From IMG/VR virus record IMGVR_UViG_3300031758_006816, positions 1 to 21,202 of that record: DNA of 21,202 nt; one strand, written 5' to 3'. The notes below the pieces were generated by a model. It ran no database searches, was not told the origin of the DNA, and saw only the letters and a list, made by a program, of their open reading frames with translations. A program made the translations under genes and the position numbers. This stretch comes from a virus. This document shows positions 3,106-15,662 of the stretch, one piece after another (the stretch's first letter is position 1; every line of letters starts with the position of its first letter).

Positions 3106-3148
3106 CTCAAGACACATCAAATACAACACACCCCAAAGAGGTACACCT

Positions 3149-5206
3149 ATGTCCGCCATCACTTTTTCATTCCGTCTTAACGAAGAGTTTCTTGCTTCTT
3201 ACCGAGACAAGAAAGCACCGTTCGGCTTTCGGGATGCTGGTGGCAACTCTGTAGGTGAAATTACTTTCCTACGCACCTACTCCCGCAAAAAAGAAGATGG
3301 TACTAAGGAAACTTGGGTAGATGTATGCCAGCGTGTAATTGAAGGTATGTACTCACTTCAAAAAGAACACTGCAAAACTAACCGTCTACCTTGGTCAGAT
3401 GCTAAGGCTCAGGCTTCTGCAAAGGAAGCTTTTGATCGCTTGTTCAATCTAAAGTGGACTCCACCGGGACGCGGTCTTTGGGTTATGGGAACTCCAATTG
3501 TTAACGTGCAAAAGAACTCAGCAGCACTTCAGAACTGCGCGTTTGTTTCAACACTTGAAATGACAAAGAACAATCCTGCTAAGCCATTTGGTTTCTTAAT
3601 GGAAGCATCAATGCTTGGTGTTGGCGTTGGTTTTGACGACAAGGGTGCTGAAAAAGAATTTACAATCTACGAACCAAAGAATGAGTGCACAACAATAGTT
3701 ATCCCAGATACTCGCGAGGGTTGGGTTGAATCAACTGTTGAACTTATTAACTCCTACCTAAAGGCAGATCAGAACTGCTTAGAGTTTGATTACTCAGAGA
3801 TTCGTCCTGCAGGAGCTCCTATTGCAACATTTGGTGGAACCGCTGCTGGTCACGAACCACTAGAGCGTTTACACAACTACATTCACAAACTATTTAAAGG
3901 ACGTGCTGGTGAACTTGTTACTAAAAAAGATATTGCTGATATCGGTAACCTTATTGGCGTTTGCGTTGTTTCTGGCAATGTTCGTCGTTCTGCTGAACTT
4001 CTTATTGGCTCCATTAATGATCCTGATTTTCTTAATCTTAAAAACGCTGATGTATTCCCAGAACGAAATTCATACGACCCAGACGCTCCTGGCTGGGGTT
4101 GGATGTCTAATAACTCGGTAGCTGTTGAAGTTGGTACAGACTTTGAACCAATCGTTGATGGCATCGCTCGTAATGGCGAACCAGGCGTTATCTGGATGGA
4201 CGTATCAAAGAAGTACGGTCGTCTTGCTGATCCAATCAACAACAAAGATCATCGCATCGCTGGATACAACCCTTGTGCAGAACAATCTCTTGAGTCATTT
4301 GAAATGTGCACACTAGTTGAGACATACCTAAATCGTCACGACTCAATCGAAGATTACAACCGGACATTAAAGTTTGCGTACCTTTACGCTAAGACTGTAA
4401 CGCTACTCCCAACTCACTGGGAAGAAACAAACGCAATCATGCAACGTAACCGTCGCATTGGTTTGTCTATGTCTGGCGTTGCTAACTTTACTGATATCAA
4501 TGGTCTACCAATCTTGCGTGACTGGATGAACTCAGGATATGACAATGTTAAGAAATACGACATTATCTATTCAGAATGGTTAGGTATTCGTGAATCAATC
4601 AAGACAACAACCGTTAAGCCTTCAGGAACAGTATCCATCCTTGCTGGCGAATCTCCAGGCGTTCACTGGACACCAGGTGGAAAATACTTCAACCGAGCAA
4701 TACGCTTTGCAAATTCTGACCCTATGCTCCCACTTTTCAAAATGGCAAACTACAGAATCGAACCAGCTTCAGAATCCCCAGACACCACCTCGGTAGTGTT
4801 TTTCCCAATTAAGTCTGATGCAGAACGCGCAGAACGCGATGTGACAATCTTTGAAAAAATGTCTCTCGCAGCAACCGCGCAGCGTTACTGGTCAGACAAC
4901 TCAGTCTCGGTGACAATCTCATTTGATCCAGAGACAGAAGCAAAGCACGTAGGAACTGTTCTACATATGTACGACGGTCAACTAAAGACTGTTTCTTTCC
5001 TACCGTCTGGCAACTTCACTTACCCGCAAATGCCTTACACGCAGATCACAGAAGATGAGTACAAAGAGGAAGGCGAGATGAAACTATTTCCAATCGACTT
5101 CTCCGGTGTATACGCAGGTATGGCAGCCGATGCAATTGGTGAGGCTTACTGCACCACCGATGCTTGCGAAATCAAGTTGATTACAGAAAACAATAAGGAC
5201 AAATAA
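3149..5206 (+). CDS. nrdJ: Class II (B12-dependent) ribonucleotide reductase, monomeric type
   Basis: This enzyme reduces ribonucleotides to deoxyribonucleotides using adenosylcobalamin as radical source, so it needs no second subunit and no oxygen. The start is ATG 3149, preceded by AAAGAGG with a 7-base spacer. The product is 685 residues, somewhat shorter than the Lactobacillus enzyme (about 739). The active-site set is complete: Cys130 (QNCAFVS), Cys376, Glu378 and Cys387 in NPCAEQSLESFEMC with the family's exact 11-residue Cys-Cys spacing, and the C-terminal redox pair Cys668/Cys673 (YCTTDACEIK). SGNVRRSAEL and KTTTVKPSGTVSILAG are further family signatures. It supplies dNTPs for phage replication and presumably depends on host or environmental B12. 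Confidence 0.95.
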   Translation: MSAITFSFRLNEEFLASYRDKKAPFGFRDAGGNSVGEITFLRTYSRKKEDGTKETWVDVCQRVIEGMYSLQKEHCKTNRLPWSDAKAQASAKEAFDRLFNLKWTPPGRGLWVMGTPIVNVQKNSAALQNCAFVSTLEMTKNNPAKPFGFLMEASMLGVGVGFDDKGAEKEFTIYEPKNECTTIVIPDTREGWVESTVELINSYLKADQNCLEFDYSEIRPAGAPIATFGGTAAGHEPLERLHNYIHKLFKGRAGELVTKKDIADIGNLIGVCVVSGNVRRSAELLIGSINDPDFLNLKNADVFPERNSYDPDAPGWGWMSNNSVAVEVGTDFEPIVDGIARNGEPGVIWMDVSKKYGRLADPINNKDHRIAGYNPCAEQSLESFEMCTLVETYLNRHDSIEDYNRTLKFAYLYAKTVTLLPTHWEETNAIMQRNRRIGLSMSGVANFTDINGLPILRDWMNSGYDNVKKYDIIYSEWLGIRESIKTTTVKPSGTVSILAGESPGVHWTPGGKYFNRAIRFANSDPMLPLFKMANYRIEPASESPDTTSVVFFPIKSDAERAERDVTIFEKMSLAATAQRYWSDNSVSVTISFDPETEAKHVGTVLHMYDGQLKTVSFLPSGNFTYPQMPYTQITEDEYKEEGEMKLFPIDFSGVYAGMAADAIGEAYCTTDACEIKLITENNKDK

Positions 5207-10173: not shown

Positions 10174-10195
10174 GGCCTGAAAATTTCGTTTTTGC
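10172..10195 (+). repeat. Module-border repeat, copy A
   Basis: GAGGCCTGAAAA followed by TTTCGTTTTTG. The stop codon of the propeller gene is the TGA whose last two bases begin the motif, and the convergent glycosyltransferase gene ends at its other edge. It matches copy B (15210) at 20 of 24 positions by direct reading. Confidence 0.65.
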
Positions 10196-10899
10196 TAAGT
10201 AAGGTCTTGCTTCTTTAGCCAGTTGTCATAGTGCGACTCTACGATCCACATTGACTTGTGGTGAGGCATTACTGCTCCAGTATGCGCGTGTATTTTAATT
10301 CCTGCTCGCTGTACTCTGTCGCAGAACAACAAATCCTCTGATAACCACTTACCGGCTTCAATAGGTCCGTCTTGGAACCATGCCCAATCCTCGCCAGAAA
10401 CTTCCGCCCCCAACTCACGAAGTTTTACAAGCACGCTTCGGTGAATCAACATACAACCTGTACCGGCTCCATAAATTTCAACTAAAGAGTCTTTTGGATA
10501 GTCATAGTAAGGAAGCACTCCTGCTTCACCTTTGTTCACGTAGATAAGCGGAACAGGTTCTAACTCATCTGGTTTCGGCCAGTAAGCTGCAAAATACAAC
10601 CCAGAAACAAAAGGTACTTTATCTTTGTCCGCTGCGTTAATAAGTTTCGCAAATGCCTCAGGAGTTATGTATTGATCTGAATCAACCATAAACATCCAGT
10701 CATCGTCAGTGTTGTCTAGGAAATACTTGACCCCTACGTTACGACTCTTAGAAAGCAGACCAATGCCTTGAATGGCGTTGTAAGAGCCTACGTGCGTAGG
10801 GAACAGGCGGATAATATCCATCAAACTAAAAGCAAATGAAGCGTCGACTTGACCGCCATGACACCACGAAATGTGGACTGTTTCTTTATCACCAAGCAT
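10195..10899 (-). CDS. GT-A glycosyltransferase, paralogue of the 12942 and 13609 genes
   Basis: The 234-residue protein opens with VHISWCHGGQVDASFAFSLMDII, has the metal-binding DSD at residues 73-75 (DDWMFMVDSDQYIT), and later YGAGTGCMLIHRSV and SEDLLFCDRVQRAGIKIHAHTG. The same order (W-x-x-G-x-V/F, VDAD, WAGLGAMIIHR, EDYFFF) occurs in the two tandem genes at 12942 and 13609, so these are one family. It is a cytoplasmic nucleotide-sugar-dependent transferase with unknown acceptor. It faces opposite to its paralogues and sits in a different module. ATG 10899 is preceded by a -10 box at leaderless distance. Confidence 0.8.
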   Translation of the reverse strand: MLGDKETVHISWCHGGQVDASFAFSLMDIIRLFPTHVGSYNAIQGIGLLSKSRNVGVKYFLDNTDDDWMFMVDSDQYITPEAFAKLINAADKDKVPFVSGLYFAAYWPKPDELEPVPLIYVNKGEAGVLPYYDYPKDSLVEIYGAGTGCMLIHRSVLVKLRELGAEVSGEDWAWFQDGPIEAGKWLSEDLLFCDRVQRAGIKIHAHTGAVMPHHKSMWIVESHYDNWLKKQDLT

Positions 10900-11022: not shown

Positions 11023-11097
11023 GCCTCCTTAGCTCAGTGGTAGAGCGTCGCTCTTGTAAAGCGAATGTCATCCGTTCAAATCGGATAGGGGGCTCCA
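11023..11097 (+). tRNA. tRNA-Thr (anticodon UGU)
   Basis: A full cloverleaf can be folded: acceptor GCCTCCT with AGGGGGC (one G-U pair), D-stem GCTC/GAGC, anticodon stem TCGCT/AGCGA with loop CTTGTAA and anticodon TGT at 11055-11057, T-stem ATCCG/CGGAT with loop TTCAAAT, discriminator T and an encoded CCA (11095-11097). It would read ACA threonine codons, which are frequent in this AT-rich phage DNA. It is not a partial copy, so it is an expressed tRNA rather than an attachment-site remnant. Confidence 0.93.
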
Positions 11098-11790: not shown

Positions 11791-11820
11791 TTGACATTCA
11801 CCCCCCACCAGACTTACTAT
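11791..11820 (+). promoter_or_regulatory. Promoter for the structured leader and the Cys-rich gene
   Basis: TTGACA (11791-11796) and TACTAT (11815-11820) are separated by 18 bp, both near consensus and identical to the boxes at 20..48. The usual start would be near 11827, just inside the first stem of the leader RNA; a start at G11824 or G11825 would keep the stem whole. Confidence 0.7.
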
Positions 11821-11823
11821 TTA

Positions 11824-11892
11824 GGTCGCAAGGGTTCTTATACTTTTCTCCCCTTGATGGGTGGGTTGCTCCGCCACCTGCGACCACGGAGC
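11824..11892 (+). ncRNA. Candidate structured leader RNA: three-way junction with pseudoknot
   Basis: Four helices fit together with almost no unpaired joints. P1 is GGTCGC (11824-11829) with GCGACC (11880-11885). P2 is AAGGG (11830 or 11831 to 11834) with CCCTT (11851-11855). P3 is GGTGG (11860-11864) with CCACC (11874-11878). The nine-base P3 loop contains GCTCCG (11868-11873), which pairs perfectly with CGGAGC (11887-11892), one base after P1 closes. It lies between a promoter and the ATG at 11919. It does not match any riboswitch consensus I can recall, including purine, glutamine, cobalamin, preQ1 and SAM types. No expression-platform terminator is seen; control of translation would be the likelier mode. 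Confidence 0.55.
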
Positions 11893-11918
11893 ATTTAAAA
11901 ACTACGAAAAGAGACACA

Positions 11919-12419
11919 ATGACAAATAACCCAGAAGATGGAAGTCTTGAAGCATTTGTAACACATTTACGAGATCAGCAAAAAGCTGCTGCAGAACACG
12001 CAGAGAGACACGTTAATGAGGTCAACGAACTTTATGGCGCTGTGAACGGTAAAAAACTTAAGAAACGCGAGATTGAAGACTTTCACAGTAGTTTTTTAGG
12101 TAAGAAGTTCAAATGGCTTAAAAACCCCGAAGGTTTTATAGAGGCTATAAAAGCAGAAACTTTAAGAACTTGTTCACATATAAATTTAATGAATCCTTCA
12201 ATCTTTTATGTAAACATTTTCTACCCTACTGCCATTGGATGCGTTAACTGCATTAAAGAAACAGCTGAAACATTTAACAAATTAAATCCAAATATTTGCG
12301 ATTCTTGTCATGAAAAAAATGAAATTTTTCACGAAGCTGTATTCCAAATTGGTCCTTTTGTAATTCATGGAAGCGTCTGTAGAACTTGTCACGAAAAACA
12401 ATCTATTAGTTATGTTTGA
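11919..12419 (+). CDS. Cys-rich protein with several CxxC pairs
   Basis: ATG 11919 begins a 166-residue protein; the frame is open further upstream but crosses the C-rich control region, promoter and structured leader, so the longer start is rejected. The first 50 residues are a charged helix (LRDQQKAAAEHAERHVNEVNELY). The C-terminal half has CSHI, CVNC, CDSC, CHEK and CRTC, with His between them, consistent with two zinc-binding ribbons. The ribosome-binding site is weak (AAAAGAG), which would suit control by the leader RNA. Its end overlaps the next gene by eight bases, so the pair is coupled. No family recognised. Confidence 0.7.
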   Translation: MTNNPEDGSLEAFVTHLRDQQKAAAEHAERHVNEVNELYGAVNGKKLKKREIEDFHSSFLGKKFKWLKNPEGFIEAIKAETLRTCSHINLMNPSIFYVNIFYPTAIGCVNCIKETAETFNKLNPNICDSCHEKNEIFHEAVFQIGPFVIHGSVCRTCHEKQSISYV

Positions 12420-12939
12420 TGAATCAGGGTTTCCATATAAAAAGTTTATGGAGCTCGGTCACGGATACAACGAAAAGGTTGCTTCTGTACTCAATAACCT
12501 AGAGTTGGATTGTTATTGCCCAGAACTTGCGTTTGCTAAAGACTGGCAAGAAGTGAAAGAAATGACTGTCAACGAAAAAGATGTTGTATTCACCAAAATC
12601 AATGGTCATCTAGAAGTTAAATCCAGAGCCTTGAAGTTCACTTCAGATCCTCAAAGCTTTCCTTACGGAACTCTAATGGTTGACACAGTAAGCGGTTACG
12701 AACAAAAACTTGAAAAGCCTTTGGCATACGTCATTGTTTCTCAGCACACAAATGACCTATTAGTGATACCTAACTACACCTATGAATACTGGACTCAAGA
12801 AACTAAATATGACCCTGCCCGGAACCTCACCGACACCTTTTACCTCTGTCCTAGAGAACTAGTAAAACCTTTTCCCTACTTGGTAGACTATTTAAGGTTC
12901 TTACAAAAATCCTCTGAGGCCGAGAAAATTGGTATTTGA
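12412..12939 (+). CDS. PD-(D/E)XK-like putative nuclease
   Basis: The start is set at ATG 12412 (MFDESGFPYKKF), which overlaps the previous stop by eight bases; an ATG at 12367 would overlap by 53. The 175-residue protein has Asp57 in KDVVF, then Glu68-Val-Lys70 in GHLEVKSRALKF, the layout of the PD-(D/E)XK nuclease core, followed by PYGTLMVDTVSGYEQK and PLAYVIVSQHT, matching later core strands. A few small phage proteins share this pattern in my recall. It could cut DNA in recombination, attack competing DNA, or be a degenerate member. Its last 24 bases coincide with repeat copy D. Confidence 0.65.
   Translation: MFDESGFPYKKFMELGHGYNEKVASVLNNLELDCYCPELAFAKDWQEVKEMTVNEKDVVFTKINGHLEVKSRALKFTSDPQSFPYGTLMVDTVSGYEQKLEKPLAYVIVSQHTNDLLVIPNYTYEYWTQETKYDPARNLTDTFYLCPRELVKPFPYLVDYLRFLQKSSEAEKIGI
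12916..12939 (+). repeat. Module-border repeat, copy D (inside coding end)
   Basis: GAGGCCGAGAAAATTGGTAT followed by TTGA matches copy B at 19 of 24 positions. It forms the last seven codons and stop of the nuclease-like gene, so some of the match could be chance, but it sits exactly at the start of the glycosyltransferase operon. Confidence 0.45.
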
Positions 12940-12941
12940 AT

Positions 12942-13604
12942 ATGATTGCAGTTGGTTGGTCGGATCACGGTACGGTGCAGGGAGAGTTTTGCTATTCCTT
13001 AATGTACGCAGTAAAAGCAGATGCTCACAATAGAAGTTTAATTAGCGATCTTTTTGCATTTCCAGCTGCAGTTGTCTCTAAAGGTAGAAACACAGTCTTT
13101 GAGCATTTTTTAACTACAGACTCCGAGTGGCTTTTAATGGTTGATGCTGACACGGTTTGGGGAGTCAGAGATATCTACAATCTTTATGACATTGCAGTAT
13201 CAAACAACTTAAAGTTACTTAATGCAATCTACTTTTTTAATCATCCTGAAAAGGGAGTAATTCCTGCATTATTTAATCCAGGAGACGAGATTGGCGATGC
13301 TTCTTTAGTAGACCTAAAAAAGATGCTTGATAACGACATTATTGAAGTCCAGTGGGCTGGTCTTGGTGCAATGATTATTCACCGCGACCTAGTAGAACAG
13401 ACTAAAACCGTTGGTGCTGACGGCCGGCCATATTGGTTTGCAGAAGGAATTGTAGACGGATTCTTTGTAGAAGAAGATTATTTCTTTTTTAATAAAGTAA
13501 AAGAAGCTGGGCATAAAATCTATGCGACCCCAAGAGTATTTGTAGACCACATTAAAAAAACTCGCATAACAATAAACGATTACTTAGCAAATAGTCAGGT
13601 ATAA
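12942..13604 (+). CDS. GT-A glycosyltransferase, tandem paralogue 1
   Basis: ATG 12942 (MIAVGWSDHGTVQ) is preferred over TTG 12936 because it matches the start of the next gene (MITVVWSDHGTVQ). The 220-residue protein has VDAD at 67-70 as metal-binding DxD, then WAGLGAMIIHR, and EEDYFFFNKVKEAGHKIYATP near the end. It is a close relative of the neighbour at 13609 and a more distant one of 10195..10899. It should transfer a sugar from a nucleotide donor in the cytoplasm. No good ribosome-binding site precedes it, and the gap from the previous stop is two bases. Confidence 0.8.
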   Translation: MIAVGWSDHGTVQGEFCYSLMYAVKADAHNRSLISDLFAFPAAVVSKGRNTVFEHFLTTDSEWLLMVDADTVWGVRDIYNLYDIAVSNNLKLLNAIYFFNHPEKGVIPALFNPGDEIGDASLVDLKKMLDNDIIEVQWAGLGAMIIHRDLVEQTKTVGADGRPYWFAEGIVDGFFVEEDYFFFNKVKEAGHKIYATPRVFVDHIKKTRITINDYLANSQV

Positions 13605-13608
13605 AGTT

Positions 13609-14301
13609 ATGATTACTGTTGTCTGGTCAGATCACGGAACAGTCCAAGGTGATTTTTGTGCCTCGCTAATAAATTCCGTAAAAGAAGATTCTAAAAAAAG
13701 AAACTTAATTGATATGGTTTTTTCAACATCTTCAGGTGCTGCTGTGGCTCTTGGTAGAAACATACTTTTTAGAGATTTTTTAGATATTTCAACATCACCT
13801 TGGCTTTTAATGGTTGACGCTGATACTTTATGGACAGCAGATAAAATATACGAACTATACGACATTGCCACAAAAAACGAAGTAAAAGTTCTTAGTGGTA
13901 CATATTTTATAAATCTTAACTGTAGTAAAGGATGCCCCCACGTACAGCCATCAATATATAAGTATGAACAACGAAATGGCAAAAAAGAAAGTGTTTTTGT
14001 TGACGTAGTAGAAAATCAAGATAAAGAAATTATTGAAATTGATTGGGCTGGGCTAGGAGCACTTTTAATACATAGAAGTGTTTTAGAGGATACAAAAGAG
14101 GTTGGATTAGATGGAGAACCTTTTTGGTGCGCAGAAGCTTTAGTAGACGGATCTTTTTCTGGAGAAGATCATTACTTTTTTAGTATCCTAAAGAAAAAGG
14201 GACACAAAGTATATGGGACACTAAAAGTAATTGTTGGTCACGGTAAAAAACAGATTCTTACTTTTGAAAGTTATATAAAAGATCATTATGATTTTTCCTG
14301 A
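13609..14301 (+). CDS. GT-A glycosyltransferase, tandem paralogue 2
   Basis: This 230-residue protein shares WSDHGTVQGDFCASL, MVDADT (DxD at residues 70-72), WAGLGALLIHRSV and GEDHYFFSILKKKGHKVYGT with the gene before it, so the two arose by tandem duplication. A Cys-containing insert (NLNCSKGCPHVQPS) lies after the core and is absent in the first copy, suggesting a changed acceptor or donor. It starts four bases after the previous stop and overlaps the next gene by 14 bases. Confidence 0.8.
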   Translation: MITVVWSDHGTVQGDFCASLINSVKEDSKKRNLIDMVFSTSSGAAVALGRNILFRDFLDISTSPWLLMVDADTLWTADKIYELYDIATKNEVKVLSGTYFINLNCSKGCPHVQPSIYKYEQRNGKKESVFVDVVENQDKEIIEIDWAGLGALLIHRSVLEDTKEVGLDGEPFWCAEALVDGSFSGEDHYFFSILKKKGHKVYGTLKVIVGHGKKQILTFESYIKDHYDFS

Positions 14302-15211
14302 AATAAATAACTCCTATATTGGTGGAACAGAGTTAATGTTGTTAAACCTAAAAGATAGGGTATTTCCACAAGCTCCAGAACTAAAGAACTGGAATTGGCT
14401 TTTATCTCCCGGCAAATGGAATGTAGATCAAAAAGAGAAAAACATTTCCTACATACATTTAAGTCACTCTCAGGGGGACTTTGAATTCCTTGAGGTCCCT
14501 GAATTTATAAACTACTCTATTTTTATTTCTTACTATCAATACCAAAGATTTTTTGAAAGTCATCCTCAAATGGAGACTAGTAGTTGTTATGTAATAAAGA
14601 ACTCCATAGAGCCTATAGAAATAACTTCTAAAGATTATTCAAACAAGATTAAAATGGTTTTTCAATGCGAGCCATACAGAGGACTAGACCGGTTAGTGAT
14701 GGCATTAAGTCTTTTAAAACACCACCAAGACATTGAACTCCACGTTTTTGGAAATCTAGACATCAACAAAGCTTGGGGACTAGACCTAGAGTTAGAAAAC
14801 TCCATAAAAGAACTGTGTAGCAAAGACAGCAGAGTTGTTTTACGAGGCAGAACTTCAAACCAGGAAGTGAGAGACTTTCTAAAAGAAGCGCATATCTTTG
14901 CTTATCCATCAACTTTTGAAGAGGTTTCTTGTATTTCTTTAATGGAAGCCATGAGTGCTGGTCTCTATTGCATAACTAACAGTTACGGAGCCTTACCCGA
15001 AACTGGCATAGGACTGACAAAGATTTATCCATTCAACGTAAACTCAGAACAAGAAGCACAGGCTCTTGCAAAAGAAATTGAAAAAGCCATAGACACACTC
15101 AGGTCTGGAACTTTTGACTACCTAACTCAAGCAGCCATAACCAACAAAACCTACTCCCACGAAGAAAGACTAAAAGAGTGGATTTCGTTCTCTAACGATA
15201 TAAACCACTGA
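14288..15211 (+). CDS. GT4-family (GT-B) glycosyltransferase
   Basis: The 307-residue protein starts MIFPEINNSYIGGTELML, with the GG-T-E loop of GT-B enzymes. The C-terminal Rossmann half shows MVFQCEPYRGLDRLVMAL, VVLRGRTSNQEV, FAYPSTFEEVSCISLMEAMS and GLYCITNSYGALPE, the donor-binding Glu-x7-Glu region of GT4 retaining transferases. It is shorter than the usual 350-400 residues, mainly in the N-terminal half. It ends the three-gene operon, and its stop codon runs into repeat copy B. With the two GT-A genes it probably builds one glycan. Confidence 0.85.
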   Translation: MIFPEINNSYIGGTELMLLNLKDRVFPQAPELKNWNWLLSPGKWNVDQKEKNISYIHLSHSQGDFEFLEVPEFINYSIFISYYQYQRFFESHPQMETSSCYVIKNSIEPIEITSKDYSNKIKMVFQCEPYRGLDRLVMALSLLKHHQDIELHVFGNLDINKAWGLDLELENSIKELCSKDSRVVLRGRTSNQEVRDFLKEAHIFAYPSTFEEVSCISLMEAMSAGLYCITNSYGALPETGIGLTKIYPFNVNSEQEAQALAKEIEKAIDTLRSGTFDYLTQAAITNKTYSHEERLKEWISFSNDINH

Positions 15212-15233
15212 GGCCTGAAAAATCGGTTTTTGA
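15210..15233 (+). repeat. Module-border repeat, copy B
   Basis: GAGGCCTGAAAAATCGG followed by TTTTTGA. As in copy A, the preceding gene's TGA stop shares its last two bases with the motif. AGGCC and GGTTT could pair weakly around the A-run, but no strong stem with a following U-tract exists. Confidence 0.65.
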
Positions 15234-15239
15234 CTTCTA

Positions 15240-15248
15240 TGAAATAAT
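15240..15248 (+). promoter_or_regulatory. Extended -10 box, leaderless geometry
   Basis: TG at 15240-15241, one base, then AATAAT at 15243-15248 make an extended -10. Six bases later comes the ATG at 15255, and no ribosome-binding site is present. TTGACT at 15230-15235 is too close to serve as its -35. Confidence 0.45.
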
Positions 15249-15254
15249 AGAACT

Positions 15255-15662
15255 ATGTATGAATACCGCGTAAAGAAAGTCCTAAAAGTTGTAGACGGCG
15301 ACACCATCGATGTTGACATTGATTTGGGGTTTGATATCTCCTACACCCAGAGAGTGCGCCTAGCTGGTATTGATACCCCAGAATCCCGCACCACCGACAA
15401 AGAGGAGAAGGTGCTTGGCTTAGAGGTCAAAGATCGCCTCAAGCAACTTATCTCCAGCGCCAACACAGTTGTTATCCGGACAGAGAAGCCAGACTCCTCA
15501 GAGAAGTACGGACGTATCCTTGGCTGGCTATTCCTAGACGGGGCAGAGAAGTCCGTCAATGAGGCTCTAATTGCTGATGGCTACGCTTGGGGCTACATGG
15601 GCGACACCAAAGTTAAGGATTTCGCGCTCCTACGCCAGCGCCGGCTTGCATCTGGAAAATAA
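15255..15662 (+). CDS. Thermonuclease-like (SNase) nuclease
   Basis: The 135-residue protein matches staphylococcal nuclease: VVDGDT at 12-17 with calcium-binding Asp, VRLAGIDTPES with Arg35, Asp40 and Glu43, and EKYGRILGWLF with Arg87. All catalytic positions are present. There is no signal peptide, so it acts inside the cell or virion, perhaps degrading host DNA or recycling nucleotides. Its codons look richer in G and C than those of the neighbouring glycosyltransferases (many GCC, CTC and CGC), which suggests a different recent origin. Confidence 0.9.
   Translation: MYEYRVKKVLKVVDGDTIDVDIDLGFDISYTQRVRLAGIDTPESRTTDKEEKVLGLEVKDRLKQLISSANTVVIRTEKPDSSEKYGRILGWLFLDGAEKSVNEALIADGYAWGYMGDTKVKDFALLRQRRLASGK

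Follow-up and report, generated by a model that had tools for sequence, protein, structure and literature searches.

Among described RNAs, the SAM-II and preQ1-I riboswitches are H-type pseudoknots that precede genes of one pathway and have the Shine-Dalgarno sequence on or next to the 3' strand of the pseudoknot. Two phage systems are also pertinent: the put RNA antiterminators of HK022 are simple stem-loops at the transcript start that bind RNA polymerase, and in Phi29 the phage genome has a single gene for the packaging RNA, which is small and structured and contains a three-way junction. Flaviviral xrRNAs are gene-independent and sometimes occur in tandem, and those of class 1 are defined in part by pairing between the 5' end and the junction, a ring around the 5' end and a block to 5'-3' exoribonuclease. 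In the class 1 fold, a three-way junction, the apical loop of P3 pairs with the strand just 3' of P1 (PMC5760640).

We compared with these systems a locus in a 21,202-base virus record of IMG/VR (hereafter the window, meaning the whole stretch analysed), for which an initial annotation had proposed a candidate new structured RNA with a pseudoknot at 11824-11892. A coordinate check recovered all four helices that it described (P1, P2, P3 and a 6-bp pseudoknot), and the promoter that it placed 5' of the element and the weak ribosome-binding site that it gave the downstream gene were both present, as follows.

11791-11820, + strand: sigma-70-type promoter TTGACA-18-TACTAT, 10/12 matches; the -10 element ends at 11820, 3 nt 5' of P1
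11824-11829, + strand: P1 5' strand GGTCGC, coordinates checked; the family-conserved part is CGC(A), 11827-11830
11830-11855, + strand: P2 hairpin AAGGG(N16)CCCTT, with strands AAGGG at 11830-11834 and CCCTT at 11851-11855, coordinates checked
11859-11879, + strand: P3 hairpin GGGTGG/CCACCT around GTT and the pseudoknot 5' strand; GGTGG 11860-11864 pairs with CCACC 11874-11878, and G11859-T11879 extends the helix to 6 pairs; both-side changes at 4/6 pairs
11865-11867, + strand: GUU, pseudoknot loop 1, invariant, also where the search pattern left it unforced
11868-11873, + strand: pseudoknot 5' strand GCTCCG (family GYYCCG); the two pattern-free positions covary with the partner strand
11880-11886, + strand: GCGACCA (family GCGAACA), P1 3' strand plus joint
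11880-11885, + strand: P1 3' strand GCGACC, coordinates checked
11887-11892, + strand: pseudoknot 3' strand CGGAGC, from coordinates, covariation and the core model match
11907-11913, + strand: AAAAGAG, weak ribosome-binding site by sequence, outside all helices
11919-12419, + strand: downstream ORF of 166 aa, start codon at 11919, not conserved behind the RNA in relatives

The 166-residue ORF product had no match in Pfam or PHROGs. Elsewhere in the window we noted an adenosylcobalamin-dependent (class II) ribonucleotide reductase gene (3143-5206), with no cobalamin riboswitch found in the window; a tRNA-Thr (TGT) at 11023-11097 between two leftward genes; and tandem glycosyltransferase-like genes at 12936-13604 and 13609-14301, which are 64% identical and have a distant relative on the other strand at 10195-10899.

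The initial annotation had regarded this combination of helices as unlikely by chance, a judgement that did not hold for the window sequence alone and stood once homologues were compared. The nested window fold without the pseudoknot had z = -0.76, with 44 of 200 shuffles equally good, and compact 5-bp/6-bp pseudoknots arose 0-4 times per shuffled window copy, never with a 6-bp P1 in 12 shuffles; four helices in the window alone prove little. Homologue searches with the downstream proteins returned just near-identical contigs or contigs without the leader, and a first DNA pattern (promoter plus P1/P2) gave only chance matches apart from the window's twin. It was the NlpC/P60 gene diverging from the leader that led to locus L016, the closest relative, whose leader is 85% identical to that of the window and shares the promoter (17-nt spacer, read by eye), with P3 and the pseudoknot unchanged, a different P2 loop and one mismatch in P1. 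A pattern on the pseudoknot and half of P3 found L042, L065, L108 and others, L042 having a second copy just upstream (P3 GAGTGC/GCACTC, pseudoknot GTCCCG/CGGGAC, both compensated). A third pattern was built from the common letters GTTG..CCG and GCGAA.ACGG..C, with neither P3 strand fixed and spacers of 4-8 allowed.

Among the third-pattern matches listed there were 70 distinct contexts, 53 with a spacer of 6 and 17 with other spacings. When the spacer was 6, 52 of the 53 listed matches formed at least five of the six P3 pairs together with all six pairs of the pseudoknot, and CGCA lay upstream in 50 of the 53; at other spacings none of the 17 listed reached 5 P3 pairs. Across 28 distinct cores 97.9% of cells pair, and 53 cells carry both-side changes, as against 13.9 in shuffles; when the partner strand was slid along as a control, pairing fell below 45%. 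Compensatory changes in related leaders, which the initial annotation had named as the support to look for, are thus present in both P3 and the pseudoknot, although four of the pseudoknot pairs are invariant, mostly because the pattern fixed them, and it is the two free pairs that covary (U-A, C-G, U-G). A pattern with any base but C at pseudoknot position 5 gave 4 matches, none with a pseudoknot. Compared with shuffles, folding was much stronger both for 64 distinct P2 segments (z of the sum -14.3) and for 64 distinct sequences of the 45 nt before CGCA, termed P0 (z of the sum -11.9). These z values are not independent tests because the sequences are related. Both elements were placed by rule and not via a calibrated model. 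In the sense reading G-U cells (~20) outnumber A-C cells (~6), and we therefore take the sense strand to be the one that folds; the RNA lies on the sense strand of the neighbouring genes.

The architecture emerging from this comparison runs (P0)-CGCA-P2-joint-P3-GUU-PK-P3'-GCGAACA-PK', a compact H-type pseudoknot with a P3 of 5-6 bp, GUU and a PK of 6 bp, in which GCG can pair with the upstream CGC and close a three-way junction. Its consensus core is P3-GUU-GYYCCG-P3'-GCGAACA-CGGRRC with CGCA upstream, corresponding to 11859-11892 plus CGCA at 11827-11830 in the window. P2 is hypervariable and yet a hairpin nearly everywhere; P0 is an optional further hairpin directly 5' of CGCA in most relatives. 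The 6-bp P1 of the initial annotation is real in the window and was rejected as a family feature: outside the window P1 consists of three invariant pairs (CGC/GCG), so the junction is supported by position and not by covariation. The window conforms to the core, with CGCA upstream and GCGACCA as the single deviation from it; it lacks P0, carrying its promoter where most relatives carry that hairpin, and has the longer P1. A core covariance model placed it at 11859-11892 with 53 bits (E 1.9e-14), the window core being among the 28 training cores.

We verified the core P3-GUU-PK-P3'-GCGAACA-PK' in at least 104 phage contigs, the window included, a count that does not equal independent lineages, of which we saw roughly seven; the patterns delimiting the family fix pseudoknot positions, so more divergent members may exist. 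No Rfam 15 family matched the element, whether the window was searched at the gathering score, the leader at E<=10 or 15 further member loci at E<=1, in agreement with the annotation's view that no known class fits. A tight pattern had no match in 85,000 cellular genomes, and a relaxed one (spacer 6) had 59, of which one (Polaromonas) satisfied both helices, as chance allows. BLAST with leader, member and core sequences found nothing in 50,697 GenBank phages, a plasmid BLAST gave one weak 27-nt match that we judged to be chance, and the literature searched did not yield any account of this RNA. The RNA family has no catalogued counterpart; that phages carry structured RNAs is in itself known. 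Chance pairing in a GC-rich leader stretch, with no RNA family behind it, would be in keeping with a window fold that without its pseudoknot does no better than shuffles. It is at odds with the 52/53 pairing result, the P0 and P2 folding and the 1/59 cellular control, it is ruled out by covariation in homologues, and we give it practically no credence. The candidate of the initial annotation has in this way become an RNA family defined by comparative genomics: comparison of homologues shows 11824-11892 to be a member of a new family of predicted structured RNAs of actinophages, and it is this comparison, not the window sequence alone, that makes membership certain.

Of 42 carrier records searched over their full length, 40 had a single copy of the RNA, among them contigs of 40, 60, 70, 110 and 120 kb (a single match each in contigs of 110,857 and 119,711 bases). 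The remaining two records (L107, L110) had two adjacent copies, a tandem pair also seen in their relatives L042, L065 and L076. WhiB, an actinophage marker, was encoded by all 13 tested carrier records of at least 33 kb, which otherwise differ in their gene sets, and no protein family was common to all carriers among the loci compared. The commonest clade has actinophage replication proteins, and its nearest cultured phage record is OX376641, named LanE43-AprF5, which is the name of Planktophila phage F5 in PMC10202952. The F5 genome lacks the RNA, which is therefore not essential to all such phages. From WhiB and the relatedness to Planktophila phages we infer that the hosts are probably freshwater actinobacteria.

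At least 14 different gene families follow the RNA, including the MNTI and MARGNG orphan families, DUF932-like and Cas4-like exonuclease genes, HTH regulators, SNase and several orphans. In most contigs 21-30 nt separate it from a start codon, the spacer being A/C-rich and the Shine-Dalgarno sequence free; elsewhere the gap is 68, 97, 109-112, 155 or 197 nt. In the main clade it starts right after the stop codon of the preceding gene, its end is mostly 21-30 nt short of the next start, and it occupies four alternative gaps, before any of four successive genes of one operon. In the window and L016, in L042 and in the L127 clade a promoter lies before the RNA, so no upstream gene is required. 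Downstream of the RNA, L016 runs directly into the SNase gene. In the window this gene (15255-15662) is 3.3 kb more distant, beyond a cargo block at 11893-15254 whose two orphan ORFs and three glycosyltransferase-like genes L016 lacks. Gene cassettes appear to have been exchanged behind a promoter-RNA unit that stays the same. The initial annotation had named loss of the pairings behind a conserved gene as the observation that would refute it, and the opposite was observed, with pairings kept while the gene changes. At five loci (L129, L149, L158, L187 and L236) no downstream gene follows and a terminator-like hairpin comes after the RNA; in L129 the next gene is convergent (NlpC/P60), and L129, L236 and the record of L187, as relatives of the window's phage, share ribonucleotide reductase, NlpC or glycosyltransferase genes with the window. 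This free-standing clade has a promoter-like site with a 15-nt spacer, poorly kept in L187; a simple scan of the clade listed neither that site nor the terminator-like hairpin. As separate observations, L161, L193, L203 and L224 have a six-codon ORF, ATGACGAAGGAAGTAAGGTAA, ~10 nt after the pseudoknot and before different genes, and L156 and L131 have a promoter-like TTGCAA-16-TATACT just after the RNA (read by eye) and a long hairpin, AAGCAGGCTA/TAGCCTGCTT, before the Cas4-like exonuclease gene, which suggests a separate leader.

The explanation we favour, with a probability of about 0.47 on the genomic comparisons above, is an autonomous phage RNA whose partner would be a factor of the host group that the carriers have in common. 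Such a module would be made as its own small RNA (L129/L236 type) or as a 5' or intercistronic part of an mRNA (the window and most others), and its conserved GUU/AACA/GYYCCG surface would bind an actinobacterial host factor, e.g., RNA polymerase, the ribosome or the RNA-decay machinery, and the phage would profit from this binding. In the window, transcription from the promoter at 11791-11820 would begin with this RNA, and the downstream gene would be a passenger. That the RNA may work by itself follows from the lack of a universal upstream or downstream partner gene, the one copy per contig and its sharing by unrelated actinophages. Against autonomy are the leader-like position in most contigs, the absence from phage F5 and the dependence of the free-standing form on one clade, where the promoter-like site with its 15-nt spacer is not kept in L187 and the terminator-like hairpin may serve the convergent gene. 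That same position, 21-30 nt before the start codon with an A/C-rich spacer and a free Shine-Dalgarno sequence, and in operons the start right after the upstream stop codon, would be expected of the main rival, which we consider doubtful but a real contender: a gene-independent cis-acting mRNA element that stabilises RNA 3' of the fold, e.g., by shielding it from RNase J, a 5'-3' exonuclease, or holds the next start region open, and that works in any mRNA carrying the insert. Gene-independence is expected of it too, and its topology would be that of flaviviral xrRNAs (PMC5760640). It accounts poorly for one copy per contig when many operons could use one, for the L129/L236 clade in which no gene follows and for the longer gaps of 68 to 197 nt, and in L131 and L156 the promoter-like site after the RNA (by eye) means that the next gene may not share its transcript.

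Of the functions guessed at in the initial annotation, a protein-binding RNA may be correct, and the other two probably fit poorly. L016, which keeps the RNA without the downstream pair, rules out for the family an RNA antitoxin directed at that pair, and a gene-specific riboswitch is unlikely with at least 14 unrelated genes behind the RNA and none in one clade; the annotation was right about structure and unsupported in these functional guesses, an interpretation that is partly supported overall. A small-molecule aptamer formed by GUU, AACA and GYYCCG and controlling the gene behind it would suit a compact pseudoknot whose unpaired residues are invariant and whose peripheral hairpins vary, as is typical of aptamers. 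We consider it improbable: the downstream families have no common function or pathway, the Shine-Dalgarno sequence is located 3' of PK and is not part of the fold, a terminator alternative is not consistently present, and free-standing copies exist. More improbable again is a DNA-level site, e.g., an origin of replication or a signal for packaging whose hairpins are extruded, which would suit occurrence once per contig and, in the main clade, a position among clustered genes for a Cas4-like exonuclease, a DnaB-like helicase and a resolvase. The excess of G-U over A-C in the sense reading is not what DNA would favour, and the element is absent from the related phage F5. GC skew gives no support to an origin, the cumulative minimum lying 2.4-6.6 kb away in six ~40-kb contigs.

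Set beside the described systems, the family RNA shares with xrRNAs a three-way junction (by position) and a P3 loop pairing 3' of P1 (PK and P3 by covariation), and like them it is gene-independent and sometimes tandem; unlike them, it has no match with Rfam models and is carried by DNA phages, so that the apparent resemblance is one of topology, not membership. With SAM-II and preQ1-I it has in common a short loop 1, an A-rich loop 3 and two stackable stems beside a start codon, and it differs in having no Shine-Dalgarno sequence at the PK strand, no single pathway and no Rfam match. Like HK022 put it would be a phage RNA at the transcript start, RNA polymerase binding being a feature of put, whereas it has a pseudoknot and one copy per contig, and in one clade precedes a terminator-like hairpin. 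Like the Phi29 packaging RNA it is a single small structured RNA with a three-way junction per genome, with the differences that it has no Rfam match, its carriers are diverse actinophages and no link to packaging genes was seen.

A further possibility by analogy, which we hold to be unlikely, is a noncoding RNA class passed among unrelated freshwater actinobacterial phages, whose xrRNA-like ring would stop host RNase J and let a stable viral RNA accumulate like flaviviral sfRNA. If true, we would know of no earlier case of a DNA phage RNA that blocks an exonuclease. The core covariance model, the 28 distinct cores and the full architecture make the family searchable in metatranscriptomes and testable in culture. 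The viruses common in lakes include phages of Ca. Nanopelagicales and its relatives, and to our knowledge very little of the early biology of these phages has been described; one RNA per genome in phages of 40 to 120 kb with differing gene sets points to a common host target.
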